Assembly (NCBI GenBank): GCA_002238415.1
Contig: MPMI01000017.1
Location: 1-64,000, forward strand
Length of the DNA: 64,000 nucleotides
Direction of reading: 5' to 3'
Source: Desulfurellaceae bacterium bin18
GTDB lineage: Bacteria; Desulfobacterota; Binatia; Bin18
Under the pieces are notes generated by a model. It made no database searches. It was not told the DNA's origin and saw only the letters and a list, made by a program, of their open reading frames with translations. Of this stretch, positions 6,080 to 52,563 are shown piece by piece (positions within the stretch are counted from its first letter, which is position 1; every line of letters starts with the position of its first letter). Position numbers and translations under genes: made by a program.

Positions 6080-7108
6080 TCAACCGAACTGCGGCATGAC
6101 CTGGCTGGCGAACAGTTCCATTGAGCGCTCGGACTGCGCCTGGGTCAGACTGCCCCAGGCGAACGACACCAGAATATAGTTGCAGCCGCTGGTCTTGAAG
6201 AAATTGGCAATCTCGTCCTGCACCCGGCTGGGAGAGCCGACAATGGCGACATCCAGGCTGCGGGCGACCTGGAGGTCGGGTGTGAACAGGGTGTGGGCCA
6301 CCCCGAAGTCGAGCCACAGCTTTTCGATGTTGGCGTAGTAATCCTTATAGGCCGGTGTGGCGATGGCTTCGGCTTCCTGGTCCGTGTCCGCCACAAAAAT
6401 ATGGCGGAACGCACCCATCTTCGGCGTTTCGACCTGGGGGTTGAGGTTCAGCGGATTGTCCCGATTGTGCGACCACACCTCTTTGTACTGGGCGGTCAGC
6501 TCCTTGATCCCGTTGTTGGGGCCGCCGCTCGCCATATGCATGCCGCGCTCGGCGGCAAAGCGGAGGCTGCTCGGATTGATCACCCCGTACCAGAACGGGG
6601 GATTGGGCGTTTGCTTGGGATGCAGCTCCATCGGGACATCGACACACTGGTAATACTTGCCTTCGTAGGTGAGTCGCTCCTGGCGCAGGCCGGCGCTGAC
6701 CATCTCCAGGGCTTCCTCGAACATCGCCCGCGAGTGCAAAAACGGCACCTCAAAATACGCCTGCTCAAACGGCGATACGCCACGCCCGACCCCGATTTCC
6801 AGGCGGCCGTTGCTCATATGGTCGAGCATGCAGATTTCACTGATCAGCCGTAGCGGATGATACAGCGGCAGCAAATACACCAGCGGCCCTAAACGAATGT
6901 GTGTAGTGTGTTGTATGGCGGCGGAGAGAAAGACGCTCGGAGACGGAGCCATGCCCAGCGGCGTGGCGTGGTGCTCGGCCAGGTGATAGCCGTAAAAGCC
7001 GGCTTCATCGGCCATCTTGAGGAGTCGCAGGCGGCCCTCGTACAACTCGCCCAGCGAGTCTGCCCTGCGCTCCAAGTGGTCAAAGATGCCAAACGCAACA
7101 TCGCTCAT
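6080..7108 (-). CDS. LLM class flavin-dependent oxidoreductase, 342 aa
   Basis: A bacterial luciferase-like TIM-barrel monooxygenase. Recognisable features are GYHLAEHHATPLG near residue 40, the RLGPLVYLLPLYHPLRLISE stretch, MLDHMSNGRLEIGVGRG at about 95-111, and PFWYGVINP. It probably uses reduced FMN or F420. Second gene of the operon: it begins 20 nt after the upstream LLM gene and ends 11 nt before the hydroxy-acid dehydrogenase. Only about a family-level function can be given. Confidence 0.85.
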   Translation of the reverse strand: MSDVAFGIFDHLERRADSLGELYEGRLRLLKMADEAGFYGYHLAEHHATPLGMAPSPSVFLSAAIQHTTHIRLGPLVYLLPLYHPLRLISEICMLDHMSNGRLEIGVGRGVSPFEQAYFEVPFLHSRAMFEEALEMVSAGLRQERLTYEGKYYQCVDVPMELHPKQTPNPPFWYGVINPSSLRFAAERGMHMASGGPNNGIKELTAQYKEVWSHNRDNPLNLNPQVETPKMGAFRHIFVADTDQEAEAIATPAYKDYYANIEKLWLDFGVAHTLFTPDLQVARSLDVAIVGSPSRVQDEIANFFKTSGCNYILVSFAWGSLTQAQSERSMELFASQVMPQFG

Positions 7109-7128
7109 ACCGTAGTCCTTCTCGTGTC

Positions 7129-8094
7129 CTAGCCCATCCGAGGCAACACATGGTCGGTGAATTGGAGAAAGCTTTCGTGGCTCAGCGGCGCGCCAATGAT
7201 GTAGTCCAGATGGATTTCTTCATGCAGGCGGGCGAGTTCGTCTCCGACCTGCTCCGGCGTGCCGTGAATGACGACGTCATCAACATAGCGCTGGACCGGG
7301 TCGCCCGTGCCGTACATCTCGGGCGGCACATAGGTATCCACCAGCCATTTGGCTCCCTGACGGGCGACTTCAGCAGCCTCTGCCGAGGTGGAAGCAATGG
7401 CGAGGAGACGCGCCATGGGTATCTGGCGGCCTTCAATGGCATGACCGTGGCGGGCGAGCGTATCTCGATATAATTCCCATTTATGGCCCAATTCCGCATG
7501 GGTGGCGTGTGGGTCCATGAGAATCGAATGGCCGACGGAAGCGGCCCACTCGATGGCCGACGGTGAAGAGGCTGCGGCCCACACGGGTGGATGCGGTTGT
7601 TGCAGTGGTTTGGGTAGGACTTCGACGTTATCAAACGAGAAATACTGGCCCGTATAGGTCAGGCGGTCGGTGGTCCAGGCTTTGAGGACAATGTCTACGG
7701 TTTCCCGAAAGCGGGCGTGGCTTTCCTCGATGGGTACGCCAAAGGCTCGGAATTCTTTCAGGTCAAAACCGCGTCCGGCTCCCCAATTCACCCGGCCGCC
7801 TGACAGCGTATCGAGCAGCGCAATTTCCTCGGCCAACCGGAGCGGGTGGTAGAAGCCGGCCAGGCACACGCCGGCCCCGATGCGGATATTTTTGGTGCGG
7901 GCCGCGGCGTACGTCCCGATGACCGGGATCGAAGGACACACGCTGTAGTCGTTAAAATGATGCTCGGTCAGCCAGACCGCGTCATACCCGTTTTGGTCCA
8001 TGATCTGGATCCGTTCCAAACCGCGCTGATATACGGTCGCCAGCTCGGTCCGCCGTCCCGGCCAGCTAAAGAATTGAAGAATGCCGAATTTCAC
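7129..8094 (-). CDS. LLM class flavin-dependent oxidoreductase, 321 aa
   Basis: A luciferase-like monooxygenase, first gene of the 8094-to-4767 operon. It has AVWLTEHHFNDY, the RIGAGVCLAGFYHPLRLAEE barrel strand, LDTLSGGRVNWGAGRG and PPVWAAASSP motifs of the family. It is diverged from the LLM gene that follows, so the two may form a heterodimer, as in alpha/beta luciferases, or act sequentially. The divergent TetR gene at 8239 and its operator are the likely regulator. Confidence 0.85.
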   Translation of the reverse strand: MKFGILQFFSWPGRRTELATVYQRGLERIQIMDQNGYDAVWLTEHHFNDYSVCPSIPVIGTYAAARTKNIRIGAGVCLAGFYHPLRLAEEIALLDTLSGGRVNWGAGRGFDLKEFRAFGVPIEESHARFRETVDIVLKAWTTDRLTYTGQYFSFDNVEVLPKPLQQPHPPVWAAASSPSAIEWAASVGHSILMDPHATHAELGHKWELYRDTLARHGHAIEGRQIPMARLLAIASTSAEAAEVARQGAKWLVDTYVPPEMYGTGDPVQRYVDDVVIHGTPEQVGDELARLHEEIHLDYIIGAPLSHESFLQFTDHVLPRMG

Positions 8095-8201
8095 ACGGTT
8101 CTCCTTCTGGGCGGTTGAGTGCTCTCGCCAAGTATAGCGTGATCAGGGCGGAAGTCTGCCCCCTCCTCGCCTATGGAGCTGGCATCATTCCTCAACCGCT
8201 A

Positions 8202-8226
8202 TTGACTTAACTGTCCGTTCGGTTAA
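8202..8226. promoter_or_regulatory. TetR-type operator overlapping a -35 element
   Basis: TTGACT (8202-8207) resembles a -35 box. It overlaps the imperfect palindrome TTAACTGTCCGTTCGGTTAA (8207-8226; 7 of 10 pairs match), centred about 22 nt before the TetR start. The position between divergent TetR and LLM operons is typical of an autoregulated TetR-family operator. Confidence 0.55.
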
Positions 8227-8238
8227 TTATTGGCTGCC

Positions 8239-8943
8239 ATGGCTCGGCCCATCAAAACGCCCTCGTCGCCGGACTACCGCTCCAGGATTGGAACGGTGGC
8301 CGAAGCACTATTTGCCGAGCGCGGCTTTGACGGCACCTCGATTCGGGAGATCGCCGAGCAGGCCGGCGCGACCAAGGCGCTTATCTATCACTACTACGAC
8401 AGCAAAGAGGCGCTGTATCAGACCCTGCTTGAGGACGCGGTGAGCGGAGTGGTGGCGCAGATTGAGGCCATTGCCGCGGACGGGACTGAGCCCGAGGCGC
8501 AAATTCGGGCCGTGGTACAGGTATTCATTGACGCCTATCATGACGCGCCGTACCGGTTTCAGATGGTGCAGCGCACCATTGACGACCATCATACGATTGC
8601 CGCAGTACTGGCCGAGCGCTGGTTCTCGCGGGCGCACCTCGCCCTGCAGGACATAGTAGCGCGCGGTGTGCACCAGGACAGTCTGAAGCCGTTGCCGGTC
8701 CAGATGGTGCCGCTGGCCGTCATCGGCCTCGTTATTCACACCCTGCGATGCCAGAAACTCGTGGGCCATGTGGACCCGAAGCTGTCCGGCGAGCAGGTGT
8801 TGAGTGCCTTGCCGGACCTGGTCCTGGCCCTGCTTACCGTCGAATCCGGTCAGACAAAAACCAGACCGAGAAGTGCACGCGCGTCTCGGAAACGCGCCCC
8901 GAGCCAGCTCACGCGCACGGTCGGGAGTGCGTCGGCAGGATAG
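8239..8943 (+). CDS. TetR/AcrR family transcriptional regulator, 234 aa
   Basis: ATG 8239 is preferred over the in-frame TTG at 8230. An N-terminal helix-turn-helix occupies about residues 15-62: ALFAERGFDGTSIREIAEQA followed by GATKALIYHYYDSKEALY. The helical ligand-binding domain follows, and a basic tail (RPRSARASRKR) ends the protein. It is first in an operon with the RND permease (12-nt gap) and divergent from the LLM operon. It may therefore control both export and catabolism of one compound (inference). Confidence 0.88.
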   Translation: MARPIKTPSSPDYRSRIGTVAEALFAERGFDGTSIREIAEQAGATKALIYHYYDSKEALYQTLLEDAVSGVVAQIEAIAADGTEPEAQIRAVVQVFIDAYHDAPYRFQMVQRTIDDHHTIAAVLAERWFSRAHLALQDIVARGVHQDSLKPLPVQMVPLAVIGLVIHTLRCQKLVGHVDPKLSGEQVLSALPDLVLALLTVESGQTKTRPRSARASRKRAPSQLTRTVGSASAG

Positions 8944-8954
8944 AGGAACACCGA

Positions 8955-11498
8955 ATGGAGTCCATTTTTCATGCCATCATCCGTTTTCGTTTTCTGGTTA
9001 TTGCGGCCGTCCTGGGAGTGACGCTGGCTGCGGTCATGCAACTCCAATACCTGCGCTTCGAGAGCGATGCCGAATCCATGATCCCCCCCAATGACCCGGT
9101 CCTGCACTACAACGACGTGGTGGAAGAGCGCTTTGGGATGCTGGACCTCATTATTGTCGGCGTCCTGAACGATAACCCGCAGGAAAACGGGGTCTTCAAT
9201 CCGCGCACCCTGGGCATTGTCAAGGAGTTCTCCGAGAAAATTGCGCTCCTGCCCGGTATCAAAGCCGTCCGGGATGAAGACGTGACCAGCGTGGCCACCA
9301 TGGATAATATCACCGGCACCAGCGACGGTATGGCGGTTGATCCGTTCATGGAAGAGCCGCCGCGCTCGGCCGCAGCCCTGGCCGCGCTGAAAGACGCCCT
9401 GTTTGATAACGCCATGTTTGTGGACTGGGTGGTGTCGCGCGACGGCACCGGTCTGCTCATCATGGCCAGGATGGAATCGTCTGAGGGGACGCTTGAGGGA
9501 GTCGCCCGACGGTCGGCGATCTATAAAACCATCCGTGACATGATCCGGGAAAAAGAAGCGGCCGCCGTGCCCGAGCAGTTTCATATCGCCGGCCGCGGGG
9601 CTATGGAGGTGACCTTCTCCGAAGACGCCCGGAGCGACATGGAACGCTTCATGCCGCTGGTCCTGGTCATTGTCCTCGGCACGCTGTATCTGACCTACCG
9701 CAGTCTGCGCGGCGTCCTCCTGCCGTTTGCCGTGGTGATCATCTCCGTCATCTGGAGCATGGGCCTGATGGCCTGGGTCGAGGTGCCCATGTATTTTATC
9801 TCGACCATGATGCCGGTCACCCTGATGGCGATCGGCGTGGCCTACGGCATTCATATTCTCAGCCGTTACTACGACGAAATTCTCAGTCAAGCCGAACCGG
9901 ACGCCAACGCGGCCGTCATGGCGGCCATGCGGGAAATGTGGAAGCCGGTGGTGTTCACGGCGCTGACGACCGCGGCCGGCTTTCTGTCGTTTCTGACCGC
10001 GGCCATGGTGCCCATCCGCTACTACGGCGTGTTTACCTCGGTCGGTGTGCTGGCGGCGATGGTCGTCTCGTTGACGTTTTTCCCGGCGGTGCTGAGCCTG
10101 CTATCGCCTCGGGCCGGGCGTGGCCTGCGGCGACAAATGAAACGGGGCGGCGACTTGGCCGCCACCGGCTGGGCCGCACGGACTCTGTCCAGTCTGGGCC
10201 GGGGGGTCGCCCGGCGGCCGTTGCTGGTGTGGAGCATCAGCGTCGGCAGTATGCTCATCTGCCTGGTCGGCCTTCAGCGTCTCTACGTTGACTCGTCATG
10301 GATTGATGTATTCCACCAGCAGAGTCCGATCCGTATTGGCGACGAGGTCCTGCGGGAGAAGTTTCAGGGTACGCTGCCGATCTATGTGGCCATTGAGGGC
10401 CACGAGCCCGACCTGCTCAAAGACCCGGACCTGCTGCGTAAGCTCGACCGCCTGCAAGCCGAGGTTGAGCAGGACCCCATTGTGGGTGGCTCGCTGTCCA
10501 TTGCCGAGTTCATCAAACGCATGAACCGGGTCATGAACGAGGATCGCAAAGAGATGGAGGTCATTCCCGACTCGCGCGACCTGATCGCCCAATACCTGTT
10601 GTTGTATTCGTTCTCCGGAGACCCGGACGATTTTGATGAGGTGGTCGATTATGACTATCAGCACGCCAACGTGTCGTTCTTTCTGCGCTCGGATCACAGC
10701 TCCGACATCGAACGCGTGATCGACCGGATTCAGGACTTTGTGGTCCGGGAATTCGGGGCCGAAGAGAATGGCGCTGATGGTCAGGCCGGCGAGCACGATC
10801 CGCTGACGGTGCAGTTCGGGCGCTGGCTGGCCGGTATCACGCCCACGGTCATTGGCTGGGAGACCAAAAGCGGGTTCTGGATCGGTTTTGCCGGGCAGGG
10901 CTATATGAGCAACCGTTTCAGCGAGTTGGTCGTGTCCGGGCAGTTGACCAGCCTGGTCACCTCGCTGCTGGCGGTGTTTCTGCTCACCACCTGCATGTTC
11001 CGCTCCGTGGTTGCCGGGCTGATCAACATCATTCCCATCAGCGCGGTGATGGTCTTCAGCTTCGGCCTCATGGGGCTGCTGGGGATTCCCCTCGAAGTGG
11101 GCAAATCCATGACCGCCTCCATGGTGATCGGCATCGGGATCGACTACACCATCCACTTTCTGAATAAATATCAACTGAAAACCAAAGGCGGCCTGGTCGA
11201 CTCGGAGCAGATTACCGTGGCCACCATGGCCACCTCGGGCAAAGCCATTTTCTTTAATGCGGCCGTGGTGATTGGGGGCTTCCTGGTTTTTCTGACCTCC
11301 AACTTCAAGCCTAATTTCTATCTCGGAGCGATGATGGCGCTGAACATGGGCGCCTGCCTGCTGGCCTCCATGACGCTGCTGCCGGCCATCCTCAATACGT
11401 TCAAGCCACGGTTCGTGTACGGGACAAGGCCGTCGCCCGCTCCGCCGACGAGAACGGACTATGTAGTTTCAACCCTGCAAGAGAAGGAGACAGTATGA
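8955..11498 (+). CDS. RND superfamily transporter, MMPL/hydrophobe exporter type, 847 aa
   Basis: An inner-membrane permease with two repeats. Each has one leading transmembrane helix, a large periplasmic loop, then five helices. The first helix is IRFRFLVIAAVLGVTLAA; a sterol-sensing-like block near residues 230-400 includes GVAYGIHILSRYYDE; the second repeat contains GIGIDYTIHFLNKY near 725. A GAGA-GAGGA-type RBS precedes ATG 8955. The open frame continues upstream but overlaps the TetR gene. Its stop overlaps the next ATG (ATGA). With the LolA-like and DUF1302 proteins it probably moves lipids or hydrophobic compounds across the envelope. Confidence 0.88.
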   Translation: MESIFHAIIRFRFLVIAAVLGVTLAAVMQLQYLRFESDAESMIPPNDPVLHYNDVVEERFGMLDLIIVGVLNDNPQENGVFNPRTLGIVKEFSEKIALLPGIKAVRDEDVTSVATMDNITGTSDGMAVDPFMEEPPRSAAALAALKDALFDNAMFVDWVVSRDGTGLLIMARMESSEGTLEGVARRSAIYKTIRDMIREKEAAAVPEQFHIAGRGAMEVTFSEDARSDMERFMPLVLVIVLGTLYLTYRSLRGVLLPFAVVIISVIWSMGLMAWVEVPMYFISTMMPVTLMAIGVAYGIHILSRYYDEILSQAEPDANAAVMAAMREMWKPVVFTALTTAAGFLSFLTAAMVPIRYYGVFTSVGVLAAMVVSLTFFPAVLSLLSPRAGRGLRRQMKRGGDLAATGWAARTLSSLGRGVARRPLLVWSISVGSMLICLVGLQRLYVDSSWIDVFHQQSPIRIGDEVLREKFQGTLPIYVAIEGHEPDLLKDPDLLRKLDRLQAEVEQDPIVGGSLSIAEFIKRMNRVMNEDRKEMEVIPDSRDLIAQYLLLYSFSGDPDDFDEVVDYDYQHANVSFFLRSDHSSDIERVIDRIQDFVVREFGAEENGADGQAGEHDPLTVQFGRWLAGITPTVIGWETKSGFWIGFAGQGYMSNRFSELVVSGQLTSLVTSLLAVFLLTTCMFRSVVAGLINIIPISAVMVFSFGLMGLLGIPLEVGKSMTASMVIGIGIDYTIHFLNKYQLKTKGGLVDSEQITVATMATSGKAIFFNAAVVIGGFLVFLTSNFKPNFYLGAMMALNMGACLLASMTLLPAILNTFKPRFVYGTRPSPAPPTRTDYVVSTLQEKETV

Positions 11499-42520: not shown

Positions 42521-42643
42521 CGGACAGGATCCACGGGCCAGTGTGTGGCTCTGACATCCCTGATTTTCTAGGCGAATTCTTACCCAATCGGGTGGCCTTG
42601 GATGCTTGTCTCCCTCCGAGCAGGTGTGGTACACGGGGCACTC

Positions 42644-44218
42644 ATGAATTTGGTGCACCATTTTTGGAACCAGCTTGCTCAGGATTCAGACCGACCGCTG
42701 TTTGAACATCTCGTGCCTTCGGGAGAAGTCACTTGGCGTCAAACCCGTGGCGCGTTGCTCACGGAGGCCTCGCTGTGGATGGCCGCCCTGCGCGGTGCCG
42801 GCATCCGACCGGGTGACCGGGTTGCCCTGTCGTTGGGCAAAGCCACCGGTCTGGTCACCGCGCATTTGGCTATTCTTGGTGTCGGGGCCGGTGTGGTGCC
42901 GCTCAATCCCGCGCTGTCTGCGGTCGAGACTGAAGCCGTCCTGAAACAGGCCGAGGTCAAACTGGCGATTACGACCCCATCAACGGTCAACCGCTCGCCG
43001 GAGATTATCAATGCGGTCAACGGGCCGTGGTGGGTCGCGACCCCGGCTGAAGAGCCGGACGATGTTCCACCGCACACCGTAGCCTTAGCTAAAGTCCTGG
43101 CCGGTTATCAGCCCGGCGACGAACCCTATATCGGCCCGGACGACGCAGTTGCCCTGCTGCTGTTCACCAGTGGAACGACCGGGCAACCCAAAGGCGTTGG
43201 GCTGACTCATCACAACATTGCTGCCAACCTGCAAGCCCTGCTGGTCGATACCTGGAAAATGAGCGCCGAGGATCGTCTGTTGCACGCCCTGCCGCCGCAC
43301 CATCTGCACGGCCTGGGTCTCGGCCTGTACGGAACGTTGTATGTTGGCAACGCGGCTGTGCTGCTGGACCGCTTCGACCCTGTGGTCGTTCTGACCGCGT
43401 TGGCTCAACATCGCATTAGCGTATTTATGGGCGTTCCGACCATGTATCACCGTATGACCGAGCGTATGGCCGAGCTGGCCGGAGACCTATCGTATGCCTC
43501 AATGCGGGTGTTTATTTCCGGCTCCGCACCGCTCTCGCCGGAGACCTTTCGGCGCTTTGAAGAACAGTCGGGTTTCCGTATTGTCGAACGTTATGGCTTG
43601 ACCGAGACCGCGATCAATACGTCCAATCCTCTAGACGGTGAGCGCCGCCCCGGTACGGTTGGTCCGGCCTTGCCGGGGGTTGAGGTTGGGGTTTTCGATC
43701 CGCACACCAAGCAGCCGCTCTCGCCAGAGGAGACCGGAGAAATCTGGGTGCGTGGGCCGAATGTCTTTAGCGGTTACTGGAACAATCCGGAGGCCACCGC
43801 GGCGGCCTTTTGTGACGACTGGTTTCGCACCGGCGATTTAGGTGTCTTATCCGCAGACAGCTATCTGTCCATCAACGGTCGGATGAAGGAACTCATCATC
43901 GTGGGCGGAACCAATGTCACGCCGGGGGAGGTCGAAGCCGTATTGGAAACCCAGGCGGGTGTACGTGAGTGTGCGGTTGCCGGTGTGCCGGATGCGGATT
44001 TGGGCGAAAAAGTCGCGGCCTTCATCGTTCCCCAGTCTGACCGGGACGCGACTACCCTTGAAGACCAGCTGCGCCAACGAGCCGAACAGGATCTTGCGCC
44101 GTATAAGCGTCCACGCCTGTATCGATTCCTGGCCGAAATTCCGCGTAACTCAATGGGTAAGATCGAACGCAACAAACTCAAGGACCTGGGAGTCGAGGCC
44201 CCGAAACCGAAGGAGTAG
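42644..44218 (+). CDS. matB: Adenylate-forming acyl-CoA synthetase, MatB-like, 524 aa
   Basis: The start MNLVHHFWNQLAQDSDRP at 42644 is used. Motifs: P-loop TSGTTGQPKG (about 175-184), ERYGLTETAINTSNPLDGER with RPGTVGPALPGVEV (MatB-type specificity region), FRTGDLG, NGRMKELIIVGGTNVTPGEV, and the C-terminal catalytic lysine in NSMGKIERNKL. The TSNPxxGxRxPGTVG block is characteristic of malonyl-/methylmalonyl-CoA synthetases, so activation of a dicarboxylic acid is likely. Its stop overlaps the RBS of the FAH-family gene, so they form an operon. Confidence 0.82.
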   Translation: MNLVHHFWNQLAQDSDRPLFEHLVPSGEVTWRQTRGALLTEASLWMAALRGAGIRPGDRVALSLGKATGLVTAHLAILGVGAGVVPLNPALSAVETEAVLKQAEVKLAITTPSTVNRSPEIINAVNGPWWVATPAEEPDDVPPHTVALAKVLAGYQPGDEPYIGPDDAVALLLFTSGTTGQPKGVGLTHHNIAANLQALLVDTWKMSAEDRLLHALPPHHLHGLGLGLYGTLYVGNAAVLLDRFDPVVVLTALAQHRISVFMGVPTMYHRMTERMAELAGDLSYASMRVFISGSAPLSPETFRRFEEQSGFRIVERYGLTETAINTSNPLDGERRPGTVGPALPGVEVGVFDPHTKQPLSPEETGEIWVRGPNVFSGYWNNPEATAAAFCDDWFRTGDLGVLSADSYLSINGRMKELIIVGGTNVTPGEVEAVLETQAGVRECAVAGVPDADLGEKVAAFIVPQSDRDATTLEDQLRQRAEQDLAPYKRPRLYRFLAEIPRNSMGKIERNKLKDLGVEAPKPKE

Positions 44219-44223
44219 CGACC

Positions 44224-45075
44224 ATGCAACTCGTCACCTATGAACGCAACAACCAACGCAGTACGGGCGTGTTGACCGCCACCGGTGTTGTCGATCTCCC
44301 GAGCGCCTCGCATGGCGCGATCCCCGGAGACATGCTGGACCTGCTCCGGGGCGGACAATCCGTGCTGGCTCAGGCACGGGAAGCCAGCGGCGCCGGTAGT
44401 CCGATTCCACTGGCCGATGTCCAGCTCAAAGCTCCTATCGCGAGACCGGGAAAACTCCTCGGGATCGGACTGAACTATGCCGACCACGCCGCCGAAGGCG
44501 GCAGAAAGAAACCGGACTATCCGCTGATTTTTGCCAAGACCGTGCCGGCGACAATCGGCCTGGGAGAGGCGATTCAGCTCCCGCCCGTGAGCCAGATGGT
44601 TGATTTTGAGGGCGAGTTGGCGGTCGTGATAGGCAGCTTGGCCAGAGCGGTTTCAGCCCAGGACGCGCTCGATTACGTTGCCGGTTACACGATTTGTAAT
44701 GATGTGAGCGCGCGCGACTATCAGCGCCGGAGCGGCCATACGCCCGGCAAGTCGTTTGAGACGTTTGCGCCGCTGGGGCCGGTCATTGTCACCCGAGATG
44801 ACATCCCCGATCCCCACGCGTTGGACATTCGGACCGTGGTGAGCGGGCAGGAAATGCAGCACTCCAATACGAAACATCTGATTTTTCAGATTCCGTATCT
44901 GATCGAGTATCTATCGCATATCTTTCCTCTGGAACCGGGCGATGTGATCACCACCGGAACCCCTTCAGGCGTTGGTGCCTATCGCGAGCCGCCTCGCTTT
45001 CTCAAGGCCGGCGATACGGTCCGGATTGAAGTGGAGGGGATTGGGGTTTTGGAGAACCCGGTCGTGGCCGGCTGA
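44224..45075 (+). CDS. Fumarylacetoacetate hydrolase family protein, 283 aa
   Basis: FAH fold with the metal and active-site motifs: GIGLNYADHAAEGG (about 79-92), KTVPATIGLGEAI, VDFEGELAVVIG (metal-binding acids near 120), ICNDVSARDYQRR, and TTGTPSGVGAYREPPRFLKA near the C-terminus. Members hydrolyse or isomerise 2-oxo or acylpyruvate intermediates of catechol and amino-acid breakdown. Start 44224 follows GGAGTAGCGACC. Co-transcribed with the MatB-like gene. Substrate unknown. Confidence 0.87.
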   Translation: MQLVTYERNNQRSTGVLTATGVVDLPSASHGAIPGDMLDLLRGGQSVLAQAREASGAGSPIPLADVQLKAPIARPGKLLGIGLNYADHAAEGGRKKPDYPLIFAKTVPATIGLGEAIQLPPVSQMVDFEGELAVVIGSLARAVSAQDALDYVAGYTICNDVSARDYQRRSGHTPGKSFETFAPLGPVIVTRDDIPDPHALDIRTVVSGQEMQHSNTKHLIFQIPYLIEYLSHIFPLEPGDVITTGTPSGVGAYREPPRFLKAGDTVRIEVEGIGVLENPVVAG

Positions 45076-45078
45076 AAA

Positions 45079-45134
45079 GCGTCTCTTGAGCCTATAGGGT
45101 CCTAGGGTCTGTTGGGTCAAGACTCAAGAGACGC
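45079..45134 (+). promoter_or_regulatory. 12-bp perfect inverted repeat in the NCS2 leader
   Basis: GCGTCTCTTGAG (45079-45090) and CTCAAGAGACGC (45123-45134) flank a 32-nt loop containing CCTATAGGGTCCTAGGG. It lies between the FAH gene and the first NCS2 permease. It could be a terminator or attenuator, or a ligand-responsive leader. No purine-riboswitch core was recognised. Confidence 0.4.
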
Positions 45135-45171
45135 AACAATCCAAGAGACTCAACCACGAAAGAAGTGAACG

Positions 45172-46923
45172 ATGGCGGACCAGCCGGCAGACACCCACCA
45201 GGATATTCGCTACGAGCCCGATGAGCGTCCTCCGCTCGCGCTCACCATCGGGCTTGGGTTCCAGTATGCCGTCCTCGTCGTTGCCGGTGTCGTGCTGACG
45301 CCGGTCATGATGATTAAAATTGCGGGCGGCAGTGAAGCCTATCTGTCATGGGCGGTGTTCGCCGCGCTCGTGGTCAGCGGAGTCACCTCGGTGATGCAGG
45401 CCGTCCGTGTCGGGCACGTTGGCGCGGGCTATCTTCTCCTCATGGGCAGTTCGGGCGCCTTCATCGCCGTCTGCGTGTCAGCGCTGGAGCAGGGTGGGCC
45501 GGGACTGATGGCGAGCCTGATCGTCATTGCCGCTCTTTTCCAGTTCGTGCTTGCGACCAAGTTGTCATGGTTCCGGCGAATCTTCACGCCAACGGTGGCC
45601 GGCACCGTACTGATGCTGATTCCGGTGACCATCGGACCGCTCGTCCTGGGTAAGCTGACCGATGTGCCGGAGGGTGTGTCTTCCGCGGCTGCGCCCGTGA
45701 CCGCTGGTGTGACTCTGGTGATCTCGGTTGCGATGTCGCTCACCAACTCTGGCGCGTGGCGGCTCTGGGCTCCGATCATCGGGATAGGCGCGGGCAGCGC
45801 GATTGGTGGTCTGGTTTTCGGCATCTACGACACTACGCGTATCCTTGAGGCCGACTGGGTCGGCTTACCCGCCATCGCGTGGCCAGGATTCGACCTCAGC
45901 TTCGGTCCGGCCTTCTGGGCTCTTTTGCCGGCGTTTGTGCTGGTGACGCTCATTGGCGCGCTCGATACGATCGGCGACAGCATTGCGATCCAACGGGCCT
46001 CGTGGCGCAGGCCGCGTGCCATCGACTTCCGCGCGATTCAGGGCGCGCTCACCGCCGACGGCCTGGGCAATCTGCTCTCCGGTTTCGCCGGCACGGTGCC
46101 CAACACGACGTACGCGGCGAGTATTTCGGTCGCCGAAATTACCAGAGTGGCGGCCCGTTTTGTCGGCGTGTGTGTGGGTGTCATCTTTGTTGTGCTGGCC
46201 TTCCTGCCAAAGTGTGTGGCCGCTGTGGTAGCCATACCGAGTCAGGTGGTGGCGGCCTACTTCATGTTGATGATGGCCATCTTCTTTGTCATGGGCATGC
46301 GCATCCTCTTTCAGGAGGGTCTCGACTATCGGAAGGGCATCATAGTGGGCCTCGCGTTCTGGATCGGGAGCGCGTTTCAGCTTGGCTGGATCTTCCCGGA
46401 ATATTTTCAGGGGCCGTGGAGCAAATTGCTCGGGAACGGGATGACCGTCGGCGGCTTTACGGTGATATTCCTGACACTGTTCGTGGACCTGACGGGGCCG
46501 CGTCGCCAACGCCTCAAGACCGCTTTGAGTGTCGATGCCTATCCGCAGATTGACGCCTTCCTGTCCGGGTTCGCCGCCCACCGGGGCTGGAACGAAGAGA
46601 TGATTGATCGACTCCGCGCAGTCGGTGAGGAGACGCTCCTCACCCTCATCCAGCAGAAAGAGCGAGGGACGGCACACGATGGGCGCCGCCTACTGCTGAC
46701 CGCGCACGGTGATAGCACGGCGGCCGACCTGGAGTTCATCGCCGCCGCCGACGAGGCGAATATTGAGGATCAGATAGCCCTGCTCAGCCAACAGGCAGCC
46801 GATACGCCGGTCGAGAAAGAGCTCTCCCTCCGGCTGTTGCGACATTACGCCTCGTCTGTGCGCCATCAGCAATTTCATGACACTGACGTGGTCACGGTCC
46901 GTGTGGAGTCGGCGGTCTCTTGA
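45172..46923 (+). CDS. NCS2 (uracil/xanthine permease) family transporter with C-terminal GHKL/anti-sigma-like domain, copy 1, 583 aa
   Basis: Residues about 1-440 form a 14-helix NCS2/NAT permease (GLGFQYAVLVVAGVVLTPVM, GDSIAIQRASWRRPRAIDFR, GLGNLLSGFAGTVPNTTYAA, where xanthine permeases have substrate-contacting sites). The remaining 140 residues are a cytoplasmic domain (IDRLRAVGEETLLTLIQQ, ADLEFIAAADEANIEDQIA, SLRLLRHYASSVRHQQFHDT). The EE-x-LL and NxEDQ pattern is like the N-box of RsbW/GHKL ATPases (inference). RBS AAAGAAGTGAACG. First of three paralogues. Cargo inferred as a nucleobase. Confidence 0.8.
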   Translation: MADQPADTHQDIRYEPDERPPLALTIGLGFQYAVLVVAGVVLTPVMMIKIAGGSEAYLSWAVFAALVVSGVTSVMQAVRVGHVGAGYLLLMGSSGAFIAVCVSALEQGGPGLMASLIVIAALFQFVLATKLSWFRRIFTPTVAGTVLMLIPVTIGPLVLGKLTDVPEGVSSAAAPVTAGVTLVISVAMSLTNSGAWRLWAPIIGIGAGSAIGGLVFGIYDTTRILEADWVGLPAIAWPGFDLSFGPAFWALLPAFVLVTLIGALDTIGDSIAIQRASWRRPRAIDFRAIQGALTADGLGNLLSGFAGTVPNTTYAASISVAEITRVAARFVGVCVGVIFVVLAFLPKCVAAVVAIPSQVVAAYFMLMMAIFFVMGMRILFQEGLDYRKGIIVGLAFWIGSAFQLGWIFPEYFQGPWSKLLGNGMTVGGFTVIFLTLFVDLTGPRRQRLKTALSVDAYPQIDAFLSGFAAHRGWNEEMIDRLRAVGEETLLTLIQQKERGTAHDGRRLLLTAHGDSTAADLEFIAAADEANIEDQIALLSQQAADTPVEKELSLRLLRHYASSVRHQQFHDTDVVTVRVESAVS

Positions 46924-47031
46924 GGGGCCGGCCCGCTCGACGCGGGGCTCCTTTCACTGCGTCTTCCTGACGCTACGCCACGTCCCTGCTATAGTCATGG
47001 GGTACCCCCAACTGACACGCCTGTAGACCCT
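46861..47031. repeat. 171-bp duplication, left copy (NCS2 3' end plus murJ 5' end)
   Basis: Almost identical to 48748-48918 with no indels. It contains the last 21 codons of the permease, the spacer and promoter (TATAGT at 46990) and the beginning of murJ. Here the murJ start is orphaned before the second NCS2 gene. This shows that the NCS2 gene was duplicated in tandem upstream of murJ. Confidence 0.85.
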
Positions 47032-47061
47032 GTCCTTACACAACCACAAGGGAAGTGAACG

Positions 47062-48810
47062 ATGGCAGATCGGCCCACAGACACTCACCAGGACATTCGC
47101 TACGAACCTGATGAGCGCCCCCCGCTCGCGCTCACCCTTGGGCTGGGGCTTCAGTATGCCGTGATTGCTATGGCAAGCGTCATGGTGACGCCCGCCATAA
47201 TGATCCAATTAGCGAAAGGCAGCGAGGCGTACCTGTCCTGGGCGGTCTTCTCGGCGCTGATTATCAGCGGAGCCACCACGCTCATTCAAGTGATCCGGTT
47301 TGGGCGCTTTGGCTCAGGCTATATTCTGCTTATGGGGAGCACGAACGTCTTCCTTCCCGTCTGCGTCTCTGCACTGGCGCAGGGGGGGCCGGGTCTGTTG
47401 GCGAGTTTGATCATCATTTCCTCCTTCTTCCAGTTCATCATGGCCGGGAAGTTGTCGCTCCTGCGGCAGATATTCACGCCCACAGTAGCCGGTACCGCGA
47501 TGCTCCTGATTCCCGTCATGATTGGGCCGCTTATTATGAAGAAGTTGGTGGACGTACCAGAGTGGGCTTCTCCTGTGGCCGCACCGGCAACGGCGGCCGC
47601 AACCGTCCTCGCGATGATCGTTGTGGCGATTCGCGGCTCTGGAATGTTGCGATTGTGGGCGCCCATCATCGGCTTAGGAGCCGGCAGTATCACGGGGGCC
47701 TTTTTCGGCATCTACGACACCGCTCGTATTCCTGAAGCAGGCTGGATTGGGACGCCCTCTGTGGTATGGCCCGGACTCGATCTGAGCTTTGGTCCGCACT
47801 TCTGGGCACTGCTACCGGCGTTCGTGATGGTAACCTTTGTGGGGGCGCTCGATACGATTGGGGATACTATCGCAATGCAACAGGCCTCGTGGCGCCGACC
47901 GCGGGCCGTGGACTTTCGCGCGATTCAAGGCTCGCTCAATGCCGACGGTCTGGGCAATCTGCTCTCTGGGCTGGCTGGCACGGTACCGAATACGACCTAT
48001 GCGGCAAGTATCGCGATTGCCGAAATCACCAGAGTGGCATCACGGGCGGTTGGCGTCTGCGTGGGAGGACTGTTTCTGGTAATGGCCTTCCTACCCAAAC
48101 TGATCGCGGTGGTGTTGGCCATACCGAGTCCGGTCATGGCATCCTACCTCATTGTGATCGTGTCCGTTCTCTTTGTGATGGGTATTCGAGTTCTTGTCCA
48201 GGACGGACTCGACTATCAAAAGGGGGTGATTGTCGGATTCTCGTTCTGGACCGGCATTGCCATGCAATTTGGCTGGATATTCCCTGATTATCTCCACGGA
48301 ACGCTGGGGGCATTGTTAGAGAACGGGGTAACGACCGGCTGCGGCATGGTGATCGTCCTGACTTTATTCCTTCGTCTGACGGGCTCACGACCGCAACGTT
48401 TCAAGACTGCCGTCCATATAGAGGCGCTCCCGCAGATGGATGCTTTCTTATCCGAGTTCGCAGCCCGCAAGCGCTGTGGCCCGGAATGGACAGCGCAACT
48501 CCGGGCGGTGGGGGAGGAAGCACTGCTGACGTTCATTCAACAGAAAGACGAGGGAAAAGCAGGGGAAGAGCGCCAAATGCTCCTCATTGCCCGAAAGAAT
48601 GGCAGGGCAATCGATTTGGAGTTTATTGTGTCTGCCAACAAGGCCAACTTAGAGGATCAAATGGCAGTCCTCAGTGAACAGGCGGCTGAGAGCCCCAATG
48701 AAGATGAGCTTTCCTTGCGCCTGCTCCAACACCACGCTACGTCCGTACGCCATCAGCAATTCCACGACACTGACGTGGTCACGGTCCGTGTGGAGTCGGC
48801 GGTCTCTTGA
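47062..48810 (+). CDS. NCS2 family transporter with C-terminal GHKL/anti-sigma-like domain, copy 2, 582 aa
   Basis: A close paralogue of copy 1 over its full length: same opening (PTDTHQDIRYEPDERPPLAL), GDTIAMQQASWRRPRAVDFR, GLGNLLSGLAGTVPNTTYAA and the same C-terminal domain (LRAVGEEALLTFIQQ, NLEDQMAVLSEQAA, SVRHQQFHDTDVVTVRVESA). RBS AAGGGAAGTGAACG. Differences are scattered, so the duplication is older than the flanking 171-bp repeat might suggest, or the ends have been gene-converted. Confidence 0.82.
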   Translation: MADRPTDTHQDIRYEPDERPPLALTLGLGLQYAVIAMASVMVTPAIMIQLAKGSEAYLSWAVFSALIISGATTLIQVIRFGRFGSGYILLMGSTNVFLPVCVSALAQGGPGLLASLIIISSFFQFIMAGKLSLLRQIFTPTVAGTAMLLIPVMIGPLIMKKLVDVPEWASPVAAPATAAATVLAMIVVAIRGSGMLRLWAPIIGLGAGSITGAFFGIYDTARIPEAGWIGTPSVVWPGLDLSFGPHFWALLPAFVMVTFVGALDTIGDTIAMQQASWRRPRAVDFRAIQGSLNADGLGNLLSGLAGTVPNTTYAASIAIAEITRVASRAVGVCVGGLFLVMAFLPKLIAVVLAIPSPVMASYLIVIVSVLFVMGIRVLVQDGLDYQKGVIVGFSFWTGIAMQFGWIFPDYLHGTLGALLENGVTTGCGMVIVLTLFLRLTGSRPQRFKTAVHIEALPQMDAFLSEFAARKRCGPEWTAQLRAVGEEALLTFIQQKDEGKAGEERQMLLIARKNGRAIDLEFIVSANKANLEDQMAVLSEQAAESPNEDELSLRLLQHHATSVRHQQFHDTDVVTVRVESAVS

Positions 48811-48853
48811 GGGGCCGGCCCGCTTGACGCGGGGCTCCTTTCACCGCGTCTTC

Positions 48854-48889
48854 CTGACGCTACGCCACGTCCCTGCTATAGTCATGAGG
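48854..48889 (+). promoter_or_regulatory. murJ promoter, possible leaderless start
   Basis: CTGACG (48854-48859) and TATAGT (48877-48882) with 17-nt spacing are a reasonable sigma-70 promoter. The predicted start point, about 7 nt beyond the -10, coincides with the GTG start of murJ at 48889 and no RBS is seen. Leaderless translation is suggested. Confidence 0.45.
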
Positions 48890-50490
48890 TGCCCCCAACT
48901 GACACGCCTGTAGACCCTTCCCAACAGACTCCTGACTCTTTGCGGTCCCGGATCGCTCGGAAGGGCAGCCCCATTATCATTGCGACGCTGCTGAGCCGGC
49001 CGCTGGGTTTTATCCGGGAAGCCGTTCAGGCCGCGCTGTTTGGGGCGTCTCGCCTGACGGATGCCTTTCTGGTTGCGTATAACGTCCCGGAAATGATGCA
49101 GACCCTTTTCTTCAGTGGGGTGCTGAGCAATTTTTTCGTGCCGGTCATCACCCGCTATCGCGACAAGAAAGATGAGCTGAGTACGATTTTCAGCCTCGCT
49201 CTGAATGGGGCTCTCCTGTTGGCCGTGCTGCTGGCCGGCGGGTGTTATGTCTTCGCCTCCGGCCTTATGACCGCCGCCGCGCCCGGTTTGGCCGGGGACG
49301 ATCACGAGCTGGCGGTTTTTCTGTTTCGGTTCATGCTGCCCATGCTGGTTCTGCACTGCCTGCTGGCCGTAATGAAGGGTACGCTTAACAGCCTCGACCA
49401 CTATGCTATGCCGGAATACGCGGGGGTGTTTTTCAATCTGGTCATGATTCTGTGCGCCCTGGCCCTCGCGCCTAGCTATGGTATTACCAGCCTGGCGGTC
49501 GGCGTTGTCGCCGGTAGTGGTCTCCAAGTGCTTGTTCAGTTCCCCAGCCTGAGACGGTGCGGTATCCGCTATCGACTGACTCTGGCGTTCTCTCACCCGG
49601 CCCTGCGAGAAATGGGTGGCCTTGCGCTCGGCGCATTTATTGCCACCGCAGTTGTGCCGATTAACGCCTTTGTGGCGCGGGCGCTGGCATCAACCCTGGC
49701 AGAAGGCAGTATCTCCGCGCTGGCGTATGCCTTTCGGGTGTTTCTGTTGCCCGTCAGTCTGGTCGCGGTGCCAGTCTATACTGTGCTGCTGACGGAACTC
49801 TCAAGCGCCCACAACGAGGGACAGCTTGCGACCTTCAAAAAACAGGCCGAGGCCGGGCTCTCTCTGCTCTTCGCCCTTGCCCTGCCGGCAACGGCGATCC
49901 TGATTGCCCTGGCGCTGCCCATCACCCGCCTGCTGTACGAACGCGGTCAATTTACCCCGGAAGACGCAGTCATGACCAGCCAGGCCCTGATGGCCTACGG
50001 GACTGGCATCCTGGCCTATGGGACCAGTCAAGTGATGGTGCGCCTCTTTAACGCGACAAAAGACACCCGAACGCCCGCCTGGATTGGCGTCGGCTCGATT
50101 GGGCTGCACGCGGCCGGCTGTTGGCTGCTGATGCAGGTATGGAGCCACTGGGGTATTGCCCTGGTGACCTCGCTGGTGTCCTACCTGAATACGCTTGTCC
50201 TGTACGTTATTTTTCGGCGACGACACGGTCCGCTGGATGAAAGGACACTCCTTCAAAGTCTTGGGGCTCATGTCTTGTTAGCTATGGTTTTGGGCGGTTG
50301 CCTGTTTTTTTTCAGCCAGCCTCTGGCCGCTGCCCCCGGCTCGCTCATGACCGGTGAGCGTCTCCTCCGTTTGGCTGGCATCCTGGTCGCCGGTGGAGGT
50401 GTCTATCTCGTGCTTGGTCTGCTCTTCAAAGTCGAAGAGGTCCATACGGGAGTACGTGTACTCAAGCGGGTGGCGAGGGGACTGAAATAA
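48889..50490 (+). CDS. murJ: Lipid II flippase MurJ, 533 aa
   Basis: MviN/MurJ family, which flips undecaprenyl-linked lipid II across the inner membrane for peptidoglycan synthesis. Fourteen transmembrane helices are expected. Motifs seen: ATLLSRPLGFIREAVQAALF with the conserved RxxGxxRE, DAFLVAYNVPEMMQTLFFSG, SNFFVPVITRYRD, RGQFTPEDAVMTSQALMAYG and the hydrophobic C-terminal spans. GTG start 48889, apparently without RBS (see promoter). The only copy visible. Its position between NCS2 permeases reflects the upstream duplication rather than a shared function. Confidence 0.9.
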   Translation: MPPTDTPVDPSQQTPDSLRSRIARKGSPIIIATLLSRPLGFIREAVQAALFGASRLTDAFLVAYNVPEMMQTLFFSGVLSNFFVPVITRYRDKKDELSTIFSLALNGALLLAVLLAGGCYVFASGLMTAAAPGLAGDDHELAVFLFRFMLPMLVLHCLLAVMKGTLNSLDHYAMPEYAGVFFNLVMILCALALAPSYGITSLAVGVVAGSGLQVLVQFPSLRRCGIRYRLTLAFSHPALREMGGLALGAFIATAVVPINAFVARALASTLAEGSISALAYAFRVFLLPVSLVAVPVYTVLLTELSSAHNEGQLATFKKQAEAGLSLLFALALPATAILIALALPITRLLYERGQFTPEDAVMTSQALMAYGTGILAYGTSQVMVRLFNATKDTRTPAWIGVGSIGLHAAGCWLLMQVWSHWGIALVTSLVSYLNTLVLYVIFRRRHGPLDERTLLQSLGAHVLLAMVLGGCLFFFSQPLAAAPGSLMTGERLLRLAGILVAGGGVYLVLGLLFKVEEVHTGVRVLKRVARGLK

Positions 50491-50505
50491 AATCGGAACG
50501 AAAAG

Positions 50506-50757
50506 TTACTGTACGCTTTGTACATCTTCGATGTAGGGGCAGGGGAGATGCTCCGCGCTGAACTGACGCCGTAGGGCCGTGGGCACGGCAAAGGACGAGC
50601 CGCGGATAGACCAGAACGATTGACTCGGATACTCGCTCCGGGTTGGAGAATAACCGGAAATGCACGTAATCGGAATGTCCGGGCATTGGTCGTTGTTGAC
50701 GTCATAGCCGATGGGTTTGCCCGGTGCGTGGGAAATCAGCCGAATGATGTGCGGAGA
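50506..50757 (-). pseudogene. Gene remnant without start codon, about 84 codons
   Basis: Behind an in-frame TAA the minus strand is open to TAA 50506 and encodes PHIIRLISHAPGKPIGYDVN, then NDQCPDIPITCISGYSPTRS and a Cys/Pro/Tyr-rich end (AEHLPCPYIEDVQSVQ). The composition is strongly protein-like and there is no gene opposite. No start codon or RBS is visible, so it is probably the 3' part of a truncated gene lying between murJ and the third permease. No family recognised. Confidence 0.5.
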
Positions 50758-50796
50758 GCATTATCGGCCGTCCATATGGGACATGAGGAGTGCGTG

Positions 50797-52563
50797 ATGG
50801 GTGTTGACGATTCCGGCCAGCTTGCGAGCGTACGCTACCAGCCCGACGAAAAACCGCTGCCAGCGATCGCGTTCGGTCTCGGTCTACAGTTCGCCATTCT
50901 CATCATTGCCAGAATAGTCGTGATCCCCATGGTTGTGGTACGGGCCGGCGGTGGGACCGAAGCCTATCTGTCCTGGGCCCTGTTCGCCGCAGTCTCGATC
51001 TGTGGCCTGACCACGATACTCCAAGCGTTCCGGTTTGGCCGTATTGGTGCGGGCTATGTCGCCGTGATGGGCACCTCCCTGGCTGTCGTGGCGGTGAGCA
51101 TCACGGCGGTGGCCGAGGGCGGCCCGGCGTTGCTCGCGACCCTGGTGGTCGTCGCGTCGCTGGTCCCGCTGGCGCTCTCCGCCCGGCTCTCGCTGTTTCG
51201 GCGGCTCCTGACCCCGACCGTTTCGGGGACGGTCATCATGCTGATCCCGGCCACATTGATGCCAACGGTCTTCGGCCTCCTGGAGGATGTGCCGGTGGGA
51301 ACCTCGACTCTGGCCGCTCCGTTGAGTGCCCTCGTGACCGTGTTGATCATTGTCGGCATCGCGCTCAGGACAACAGGAGGGCTGCGTCTCTGGGCACCGG
51401 TGATCGGTGTAGCCCTCGGCTCTTTGGCGGCGGGGTGGGTCGGTCTCTTCAACGTGGACGGCATAGCCGAGGCTGCGTGGGTCGGCCTTCCGGCGGGCGA
51501 ATGGCCCGGCTTGGCTCTTGATTTCGGACCAATTTTTTGGGCGCTTCTGCCCGCATTCGTACTCGTGGCTCTGATCGAAAGCGTCCAGACGATCAGCAAT
51601 GCCGTCGCCGTGCAGCGTGTCTCCTGGCGGCAGCTCCGGGCGGTGGATTTTCGGGCGGTACAGGGCGCGGTGACGGCAGCCGGAATCGGCAACCTGCTGT
51701 CTGGCTTGGCCGGAACGGTGCCGAACACGCTGCTATCGACCGGCGTGGCGGTGGTCGAACTCACCGGGGCGGCGGCCCGCCGCATCGGGGTTGCCGTTGG
51801 GATCGTATTCGTCGCCGTGGCATTCCTTCCCAAGGCGCTCGCCGTGGTCCTGGCGATACCGGGTCCGGTCGTCGCGGCCTATCTCGCCGTCTTACAGGCG
51901 ACGCTCTTCGTGGTCGGCATGAAGGTCATCGTTCAGGACGGAATCGACTATCGCAAGGGGCTGGTTGTGGGCCTGTCGTTCTGGGTCGGTGTCGGCTTTC
52001 AGAATGGCGCGATATTCCCCGAGTTTGCTCAGGCATTCGCCGGAGGCCTGCTGCGGAATGGAGTCACGGCCGGCGGTCTCATGGCCATCCTGATGACGTT
52101 CTTCATGGAGATGACAAAACCGCGCCGTGGCCGGATGGAGACACGGTTCGATCTCTCAGCTCTGCCAAAGATCAGGGAGTTTCTCGTTGCGTTCGCGTCC
52201 CGTGGTGGCTGGGATGGGACGATGGCCGAGCGCCTTGAGGCTGTCGGCGAGGAAACGTTACTGACGCTGCTCGGGCAAGACGAGGCCGGCGAGGAGAAAG
52301 AGCAGCGACGGCTCCTCTTGATGGCGCGCAAGGAGGGGGATAGGGCGGTACTCGAGTTCGTTGCCGCGACCGGCGAGGACAACCTCCAGGATCGGATCGC
52401 GCTGCTTGGCGATCAGATGGGCGAAATTCCGATCGAGCGGGACGTTTCACTTCGGCTGTTGCGACACCTCGCGTCTTCGGTTCGCCACGAGCAATACCAT
52501 GACACCGATATCGTGACTGTCCGTGTGGATGCCCCGGAGAAAATTCCCGGCGGACATGCCTAA
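50797..52563 (+). CDS. NCS2 family transporter with C-terminal GHKL/anti-sigma-like domain, copy 3, 588 aa
   Basis: ATG 50797 follows GAGGAG (6 nt). The permease part is a diverged homologue of copies 1 and 2 (FGLGLQFAILIIARIVVIPM, AVQRVSWRQLRAVDFRAVQG, GIGNLLSGLAGTVPNTLLST). The C-terminal domain is retained (AERLEAVGEETLLTLLGQDE, AATGEDNLQDRIALLGDQMG, SLRLLRHLASSVRHEQYHDT). Conservation of this domain in the oldest copy shows it is under selection. Some substrate-site residues differ, so its cargo may differ too. Confidence 0.82.
   Translation: MGVDDSGQLASVRYQPDEKPLPAIAFGLGLQFAILIIARIVVIPMVVVRAGGGTEAYLSWALFAAVSICGLTTILQAFRFGRIGAGYVAVMGTSLAVVAVSITAVAEGGPALLATLVVVASLVPLALSARLSLFRRLLTPTVSGTVIMLIPATLMPTVFGLLEDVPVGTSTLAAPLSALVTVLIIVGIALRTTGGLRLWAPVIGVALGSLAAGWVGLFNVDGIAEAAWVGLPAGEWPGLALDFGPIFWALLPAFVLVALIESVQTISNAVAVQRVSWRQLRAVDFRAVQGAVTAAGIGNLLSGLAGTVPNTLLSTGVAVVELTGAAARRIGVAVGIVFVAVAFLPKALAVVLAIPGPVVAAYLAVLQATLFVVGMKVIVQDGIDYRKGLVVGLSFWVGVGFQNGAIFPEFAQAFAGGLLRNGVTAGGLMAILMTFFMEMTKPRRGRMETRFDLSALPKIREFLVAFASRGGWDGTMAERLEAVGEETLLTLLGQDEAGEEKEQRRLLLMARKEGDRAVLEFVAATGEDNLQDRIALLGDQMGEIPIERDVSLRLLRHLASSVRHEQYHDTDIVTVRVDAPEKIPGGHA

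Follow-up and report, generated by a model that had tools for sequence, protein, structure and literature searches.

Why three closely spaced permease genes should each end in a conserved extra domain is the question raised by this locus, which lies in a 64,000-nucleotide stretch of contig MPMI01000017.1 of Desulfurellaceae bacterium bin18 (the window). The original prediction described the three open reading frames as NCS2 permeases, each with a conserved C-terminal domain of some 140 residues, and this is confirmed by both Pfam and alignment. The frames lie where they had been placed, at 45172-46923 (permease 1, 583 aa, with its stop codon at 46921-46923), 47062-48810 (permease 2, 582 aa) and 50797-52563 (permease 3, 588 aa); the frame of permease 3 continues upstream without a stop as far as a TTG at 50620, a possible alternative start. 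Membership in the NCS2 family is clear, as PF00860 scores 123-146 bits against a Pfam cut-off of 27, and the match spans only residues ~26-401 of the three proteins. The tail motifs that had been quoted are present with small exceptions, such as the versions found in permease 2 (QLRAVGEEALLTF, NLEDQMAVL and SLRLLQHHATSVRHQQFHDTD).

Table 1. Domains of the three tailed permeases in the window.
Feature	Coordinates	Strand	Support
Permease 1 (P0001), NCS2 (Xan_ur_permease) membrane domain, residues 1-443	45172..46500	+	PF00860 E 1.5e-42, residues 26-400
Permease 1, predicted C-terminal RsbW-like pseudo-kinase domain, residues 444-583	46501..46920	+	AF2 pLDDT 76-77; Foldseek/VIA best matches RsbW, UsfX, SpoIIAB
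Permease 2 (P0002), NCS2 membrane domain	47062..48387	+	PF00860 E 3.2e-40
Permease 2, predicted C-terminal RsbW-like pseudo-kinase domain	48388..48807	+	64% identity to tail 1; tail-profile matches
Permease 3 (P0003), NCS2 membrane domain	50797..52116	+	PF00860 E 1e-35
Permease 3, predicted C-terminal RsbW-like pseudo-kinase domain, short terminal extension	52117..52560	+	54% identity to tail 1; tail-profile matches

The tail had been guessed to adopt a GHKL fold, and a check of its predicted structure bears this out. Two AF2 models were built, one from 83 sequences and one from the three window tails alone, and both give the order beta-alpha-alpha-beta-beta-alpha-beta-beta. For both models the top 19 Foldseek matches are RsbW, SpoIIAB or UsfX, with E about 1e-7, and VIA aligns the tail model with RsbW at Z 15.7 over 113 residues. 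Profile comparison agrees. The tail profile finds a colinear RsbW match among PDB sequences (E 0.0093), and against 26 true HATPase_c_2 proteins hhalign scores 47.5 for the tails of group 2, the widespread form of these permeases, and 30.4 for those of group 1, the window type, compared with maxima of 17.4 and 15.9 for 40 column-shuffled decoys. Structure prediction places the tail in the RsbW/SpoIIAB branch of the GHKL fold. Pfam and NCBIfam return no tail match for the window proteins even at E = 10, HATPase_c_2 at its Pfam cut-off included, and 2 of 10 group-2 tails match HATPase_c_2 in Pfam (best E 0.0019). A STAS fold, and with it a C-terminal STAS domain as in SLC26/SulP, was ruled out for the window permeases, with no Pfam STAS match at E 10 and an RsbW-like model. 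The tail shares with RsbW, SpoIIAB and UsfX (HATPase_c_2, PF13581) the fold and order of elements, the colinear profile match and a largely retained N-box Glu; unlike them, it is fused to an NCS2 permease, has lost the N-box Asn, the G1 Asp and the G2 Gly, and has no sigma-factor family recurring near its genes.

The gene neighbourhood of group 2 links the tailed permease to a partner-switch module, with STAS, SpoIIE-type phosphatase and RsbW-type kinase genes as recurrent neighbour families. At least one of the three lies beside the permease at 38 of 80 tailed loci versus 0 of 16 loci of NCS2 permeases without the tail (Fisher p 1.5e-4, which overstates the test because the 80 loci lack phylogenetic independence). 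STAS genes are found at 37 loci, SpoIIE at 29 and the kinase at 18; STAS and SpoIIE occur together at 28, and all three families at 15. The remaining 42 loci have no such gene within the fetched flank, and several contigs end early. The Y-[ILV]-S-S/T phospho-acceptor segment is kept in 36 of the 38 linked STAS proteins, most of the 18 linked kinase matches have the ExxxN and GGLG motifs, and the linked SpoIIE proteins carry sensor parts of their own (5TM-LYT or Cache/HAMP). The rsb and spoIIA systems are likewise linked to STAS and SpoIIE genes. No partner-switch gene lies beside the permease in the group-1 regions examined, the window included; in the window genome, several STAS proteins are encoded, along with a single complete kinase-STAS-phosphatase operon.

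Partner switching is known chiefly as a means of freeing sigma factors. Since relatives of these permeases often adjoin genes of the pathway, it probably switches a transporter, instead of or besides a gene. The reading towards which we lean is that the group-2 permease is the output of a partner-switching module, through docking of a STAS protein on the dead RsbW tail, with group 1 served in trans or its tail structural. A SpoIIE-type phosphatase whose sensor part is of the membrane or Cache kind and an intact, free-standing RsbW-type kinase would together set the phosphorylation state of a small STAS protein, which would dock on the pseudo-kinase tail or leave it and so alter the activity, stability or dimer state of the permease. 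The group-1 permeases of the window may find their STAS partner in trans; alternatively, the tail may there be a module for regulation or dimerisation and nothing more. This reading builds on the predicted fold, the loss of ATP motifs, the selection on the tail, the linkage of group 2 and the grouping of the two membrane domains, to which we add the docking of STAS, the direction of control and the nature of the substrate as proposals. A precedent for STAS control of a transporter is MlaFEDB, where MlaB, a STAS protein in complex with the ABC ATPase MlaF, acts on the transporter (PMC7367683), although that transporter is of the ABC type and STAS there meets a P-loop ATPase instead of an RsbW-like domain. 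In several bacterial phyla and in methanogenic archaea, gene order ties the parts of a partner switch to a permease that has a dead kinase copy as its tail; if STAS does dock there, uptake could be switched without new protein synthesis.

The same gene linkage would also fit a transceptor, in which the permease senses its substrate, the tail sequesters or releases STAS, and the linked phosphatase and kinase module conveys information on substrate or flux to gene expression. An RsbW-type protein is the STAS-binding hub of canonical partner switching, and reverse-sense STAS-based switches exist: the STAS and RsbW-type kinase parts of SypA/SypE, BtrV/BtrW and RbaV serve other outputs or the reverse sense, with no fused transporter described there (PMC10120452). 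However, the 25 most recurrent neighbour families of tailed permeases include no sigma-factor family, and a second input is unneeded because the SpoIIE proteins have their own sensor parts, so that we regard a transceptor as unlikely.

A purely structural tail, that is, a dimerisation or stability domain without a partner protein, is rather improbable as a general account, even if it could hold for group 1 in the window while group 2 is switched. RsbW-type proteins dimerise, the length and end of the tail are nearly constant, group 1 is without a linked partner, and in SLC26/SulP the STAS domain is regarded as partly of this kind; UapA, moreover, functions as a dimer (PMC4837479). Against it stands the recurrent and specific linkage of group 2 to exactly the three partner-switch families, seen in none of the 16 controls.

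The tail had also been proposed as a possible built-in regulatory or sensor ATPase. The GHKL fold would suit a nucleotide sensor or kinase that binds ATP or another nucleotide through altered residues, as would two retained residues, the N-box Glu, present in all group-1 tails (38/38) and in 58/80 of group 2, and the G1 Gly, present in 79/80 of group 2. However, in a motif census of 118 tails (80 of group 2, 38 of group 1) and 27 true RsbW-type controls, both the N-box Asn and the G2-box Gly, which bind ATP/Mg, are found in 0/80 and 0/38 tails versus 27/27 controls. At the position of the G1-box Asp, 77 of the 80 group-2 tails have Tyr and group 1 shows no conservation; beside many of these permeases, moreover, a separate gene encodes an intact kinase. 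An active ATPase is rejected on these motifs, the earlier guess is unsupported because both residues are missing in every tail examined, and a nucleotide sensor in any altered form is very improbable. From the suggested N-box resemblance only the Glu survives. As judged from sequence, the tail is most likely a catalytically dead pseudo-kinase, a relative of RsbW.

Chance or an annotation artefact, for which nothing was found to speak, is a negligible explanation, given that each of the six intact NCS2 genes in this genome carries the tail in a single open frame, that 80/80 fetched relatives have it in the same frame and place, and that it is under purifying selection. Among congeneric genomes (n=6), the tail is found in most of the 6-9 NCS2 copies of each. 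The dN/dS of the tail is 0.10-0.19 versus 0.12-0.19 for the membrane part, and purifying selection on the tail is as strong as on the membrane domain. The argument that retention in a divergent third copy signifies function is upheld by this selection.

The label of nucleobase permease fares less well. Like UraA, XanP and UapA (NCS2/SLC23), the tailed permeases have a nearly full-length PF00860 membrane domain; unlike them, they have about 130-140 extra C-terminal residues and for the most part lack the base-binding side chains, a Glu in TM8 and a Gln/Glu in TM10 (UapA E356, Q408; UraA E241, E290). The TM8 position holds D/E/Q/R/G in group 1 and K/R in 67/71 group-2 proteins, and the TM10 position is mostly S/T/A. 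These replacements count against a nucleobase substrate and leave membership in the fold family untouched; the substrates are probably not classical nucleobases. The group-1 gene context does not point to a substrate either: the neighbours, judged by eye, form a mixed set (CoA ligase, FAH-type, amidase, hydrolase, TctC-like) that is not purine-specific.

A close parallel in design is SLC26/SulP, which shares a membrane-fold superfamily with NCS2 (PMC4837479) and likewise ends in a cytoplasmic domain of the partner-switch type. SLC26 bears the RsbV-like half (STAS), whereas the tailed permeases bear the RsbW-like half. If the favoured reading holds, they would add a second half to a relation that has long been noted, that of SLC26 anion transporters to anti-sigma antagonists. 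Direct partner-switch control of a secondary transporter by way of a pseudo-RsbW fusion, mirroring SLC26-STAS and serving a new NCS2 substrate class, could be general among bacteria and archaea, a generalisation we hold tentatively and with slightly more doubt than confidence. Among the open-access papers searched, none was found that connects NCS2 permeases with domains of the RsbW or HATPase type.

The same fusion was sought in other genomes, with group-2 tails as the query of a profile scan of genome contigs. The tail defines a subfamily of NCS2 permeases that is widespread, with at least 105 places in GTDB genomes, and its hosts include several bacterial phyla and methanogenic archaea; confinement to this genus is thus ruled out. 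Viral contigs gave no tail homologue with the window tail as query. Matches to Sinorhizobium pSymB in tblastn seemed full length and were dropped, as the annotated protein is an ordinary NCS2 of 463 residues. In the membrane-domain tree, groups 1 and 2 share one side of a branch with support 99/98, apart from 7 of 8 tail-less NCS2 proteins; the eighth, which has a long branch, falls within group 2. The direct comparison of group-1 with group-2 tails by hhalign is weak taken alone (P 17%, E 0.0015). A single fusion to an NCS2-fold permease, maintained ever since, is the probable origin of the tailed form. Cultured genera with such permeases include Sporomusa, Variovorax and Azospirillum.

The three permease genes that the original prediction had placed in the window are real open reading frames (see the table). 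Their only Pfam match is the NCS2 permease domain (PF00860), which ends at about residue 401, and the remainder of each protein, including a C-terminal tail of roughly 140 residues, matches nothing in Pfam or NCBIfam. This tail is present in all six intact NCS2 genes of the window's genome, and each of six other genomes of the genus holds 6-9 tail matches. A seventh copy, on contig C35, is an N-terminal fragment, 38-43% identical to the window permeases. For permeases 1, 2 and 3, the median dN/dS is 0.19, 0.10 and 0.16 in the tail and 0.19, 0.12 and 0.14 in the membrane part; purifying selection on the two parts is similar.

Location of the permease genes and other features (L numbers in this table are fetched regions of the window's genome, with coordinates within each)
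Feature	Sequence	Coordinates
CoA-ligase-like gene (named by eye)	window	42602-44218
FAH-type gene (named by eye)	window	44224-45075
Permease 1	window	45172-46923
Permease 2	window	47062-48810
Permease 3	window	50797-52563
Run from CoA-ligase-like gene to permease 1	window	42602-46923
NCS2 N-terminal fragment	contig C35 (L245)	564-980
STAS gene beyond the fragment	contig C35 (L245)	6384-6824
Kinase-STAS-SpoIIE operon	contig C56 (L198)	7698-9756
Adjacent STAS gene pair	contig C64 (L244)	7016-7865

The predicted fold of the tail is that of the anti-sigma kinase RsbW. AlphaFold2 modeled an alignment of 83 tails with a pLDDT of 76 and a pTM of 0.76, and the three window tails alone with 77.4 and 0.75. 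Strands and helices follow one another identically in both models, and the fold is thus independent of distant relatives in the alignment. With either model, all 19 Foldseek matches in the PDB with E < 0.001 were UsfX, RsbW or SpoIIAB chains. A VIA match to RsbW reached Z 15.7 at 2.2 A across 113 residues. Independently of structure prediction, a tail profile found RsbW among PDB sequences (E 0.0093, colinear across 119 positions). Against 26 true HATPase_c_2 proteins, hhalign gave 47.5 for the broader, widespread tailed subfamily (group 2; shuffled decoys at most 17.4) and 30.4 for the window-like permeases (group 1; decoys at most 15.9). Among ten group-2 tails, Pfam HATPase_c_2 touched two and HPTransfase one.

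The residues that bind ATP are a different matter. All 27 controls (the 26 HATPase_c_2 proteins and Bacillus subtilis RsbW) keep the N-box Asn, the G1 Asp and the two G2 glycines. In the 80 group-2 tails the Asn is replaced by Ala, Ser, Thr or another residue, the Asp by Tyr (77/80), and the glycines by Lys, Arg or others and by Ala or Ser. The 38 group-1 tails carry Thr, Ser or Val in the N-box and Glu/Asp and Ser/Pro in G2, assignments that are firmer than those of the G1 box, whose alignment in this group is uncertain by some residues. Judged from these motifs, the tail is probably a pseudo-kinase.

All group-1 matches came from the window's genus, from a sister genus or from a single further family in their class. 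Group 2, with the hallmark W-G-A-R ... F-D-E-F-N-L-D ... Y-x-G ... H-F-x-H-stop, was detected in 12 further genomes when a phylum sample of 395 was searched, on Azospirillum and Thiodictyon plasmids, and at 105 sites across GTDB genomes, including Syntrophaceae, Sporomusa, Pelotomaculum, Methanothrix, Variovorax, Cloacimonadota, Armatimonadota, Nitrospirae, Ignavibacteriales and Rokubacteria. At each of the 80 sites fetched, the tail closes a longer open frame, which has the length of a permease unless cut by a contig end or frame break. In nearly all group-2 proteins, H-x-x-H forms the exact C-terminus (LHFEH-stop type; alignments A4 and A5). In the membrane-domain tree, a branch (99/98) sets both groups apart from seven of eight tail-less NCS2 proteins, which is consistent with one fusion event and perhaps one loss. 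The eighth, L226, sits on a long branch within the tail-bearing group, through either tail loss or a long-branch artefact.

The unexpected part of the analysis was the linkage of group-2 permeases to partner-switch genes. Clustering of 424 neighbors gave two dominant families, and Pfam identified STAS proteins, free-standing HATPase_c_2 kinases, and SpoIIE-type phosphatases whose sensor parts are 5TM-LYT or Cache/HAMP. Recounted with HMMs over 80 loci, STAS occurs at 37, SpoIIE at 29 and the kinase at 18; STAS and SpoIIE occur together at 28, all three at 15, and at least one at 38, against none at 16 tail-less NCS2 loci of the same phylum. Recurrence on this scale was seen for no other family of neighbors, and loci lacking partner-switch genes have few recurrent ones. 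The RsbV/SpoIIAA serine segment is kept in 36 of 38 linked STAS proteins and the ATP motifs in most linked kinases; the intact kinase is thus a protein of its own, and the permease bears the dead copy.

The results show an RsbW-type fold by prediction, lost ATP motifs, selection on the tail, linked partner-switch genes and a common grouping of the membrane domains; the mechanism built on them is inferred. The kinase and phosphatase would set the phosphorylation state of the STAS protein, which, when dephosphorylated, would dock on the permease tail as RsbV does on RsbW, and docking may alter transport. Alternatively, the permease may be the input of the switch (a transceptor), or the tail may be purely structural. 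Reversed and non-sigma outputs of STAS switches have precedents (PMC10120452), and the STAS protein MlaB binds the transporter ATPase MlaF and is needed for its stability (PMC7367683). The nearest parallel is SLC26/SulP, whose membrane fold is homologous to NCS2 (PMC4837479) and whose C-terminus carries STAS, the RsbV-like half (PMC8256260); the NCS2 branch here carries the RsbW-like half instead. We found no description of this architecture in the open-access papers searched, though an earlier one may exist elsewhere; public annotation reads only "solute carrier family 23 protein".

UapA binds xanthine via E356 and Q408 (PMC4837479). At the aligned TM8 position, group 2 has Lys (63/71) or Arg (4/71) and group 1 has Asp, Glu, Gln, Arg or Gly; Ser, Thr or Ala predominates at the TM10 position. 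For group 2 a classical nucleobase substrate is unlikely; for group 1 it is uncertain. The radical change from Glu to Lys/Arg (67/71 in group 2) would fit an anionic substrate. The CoA-ligase-like and FAH-type genes share a strand with permease 1 and lead straight into it, which suggests a catabolic operon, and no purine gene was seen beside this run.

No partner-switch genes stand beside the permease in the group-1 regions examined. Control of the window permeases by STAS in trans is possible, because their genome encodes a complete kinase-STAS-SpoIIE operon on contig C56 and several further STAS proteins, and a same-class relative (L094, Candidatus Binatia) has a STAS gene directly before a group-2 permease. 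The C56 kinase is RsbW-type, and its SpoIIE-type phosphatase has an apparent N-terminal receiver domain. The two STAS genes on contig C64 are highly similar, and their surroundings yielded neither a kinase nor a phosphatase. On C35, the group-1 permease fragment precedes a STAS gene by about 5.4 kb, and the interval holds a long frame on the reverse strand that looks PKS-like by eye. Tandem pairs are frequent in the family (L114, L120, L124, L131, L134, L140, L151, L027 and window 45172-48810), and may represent heterodimers.
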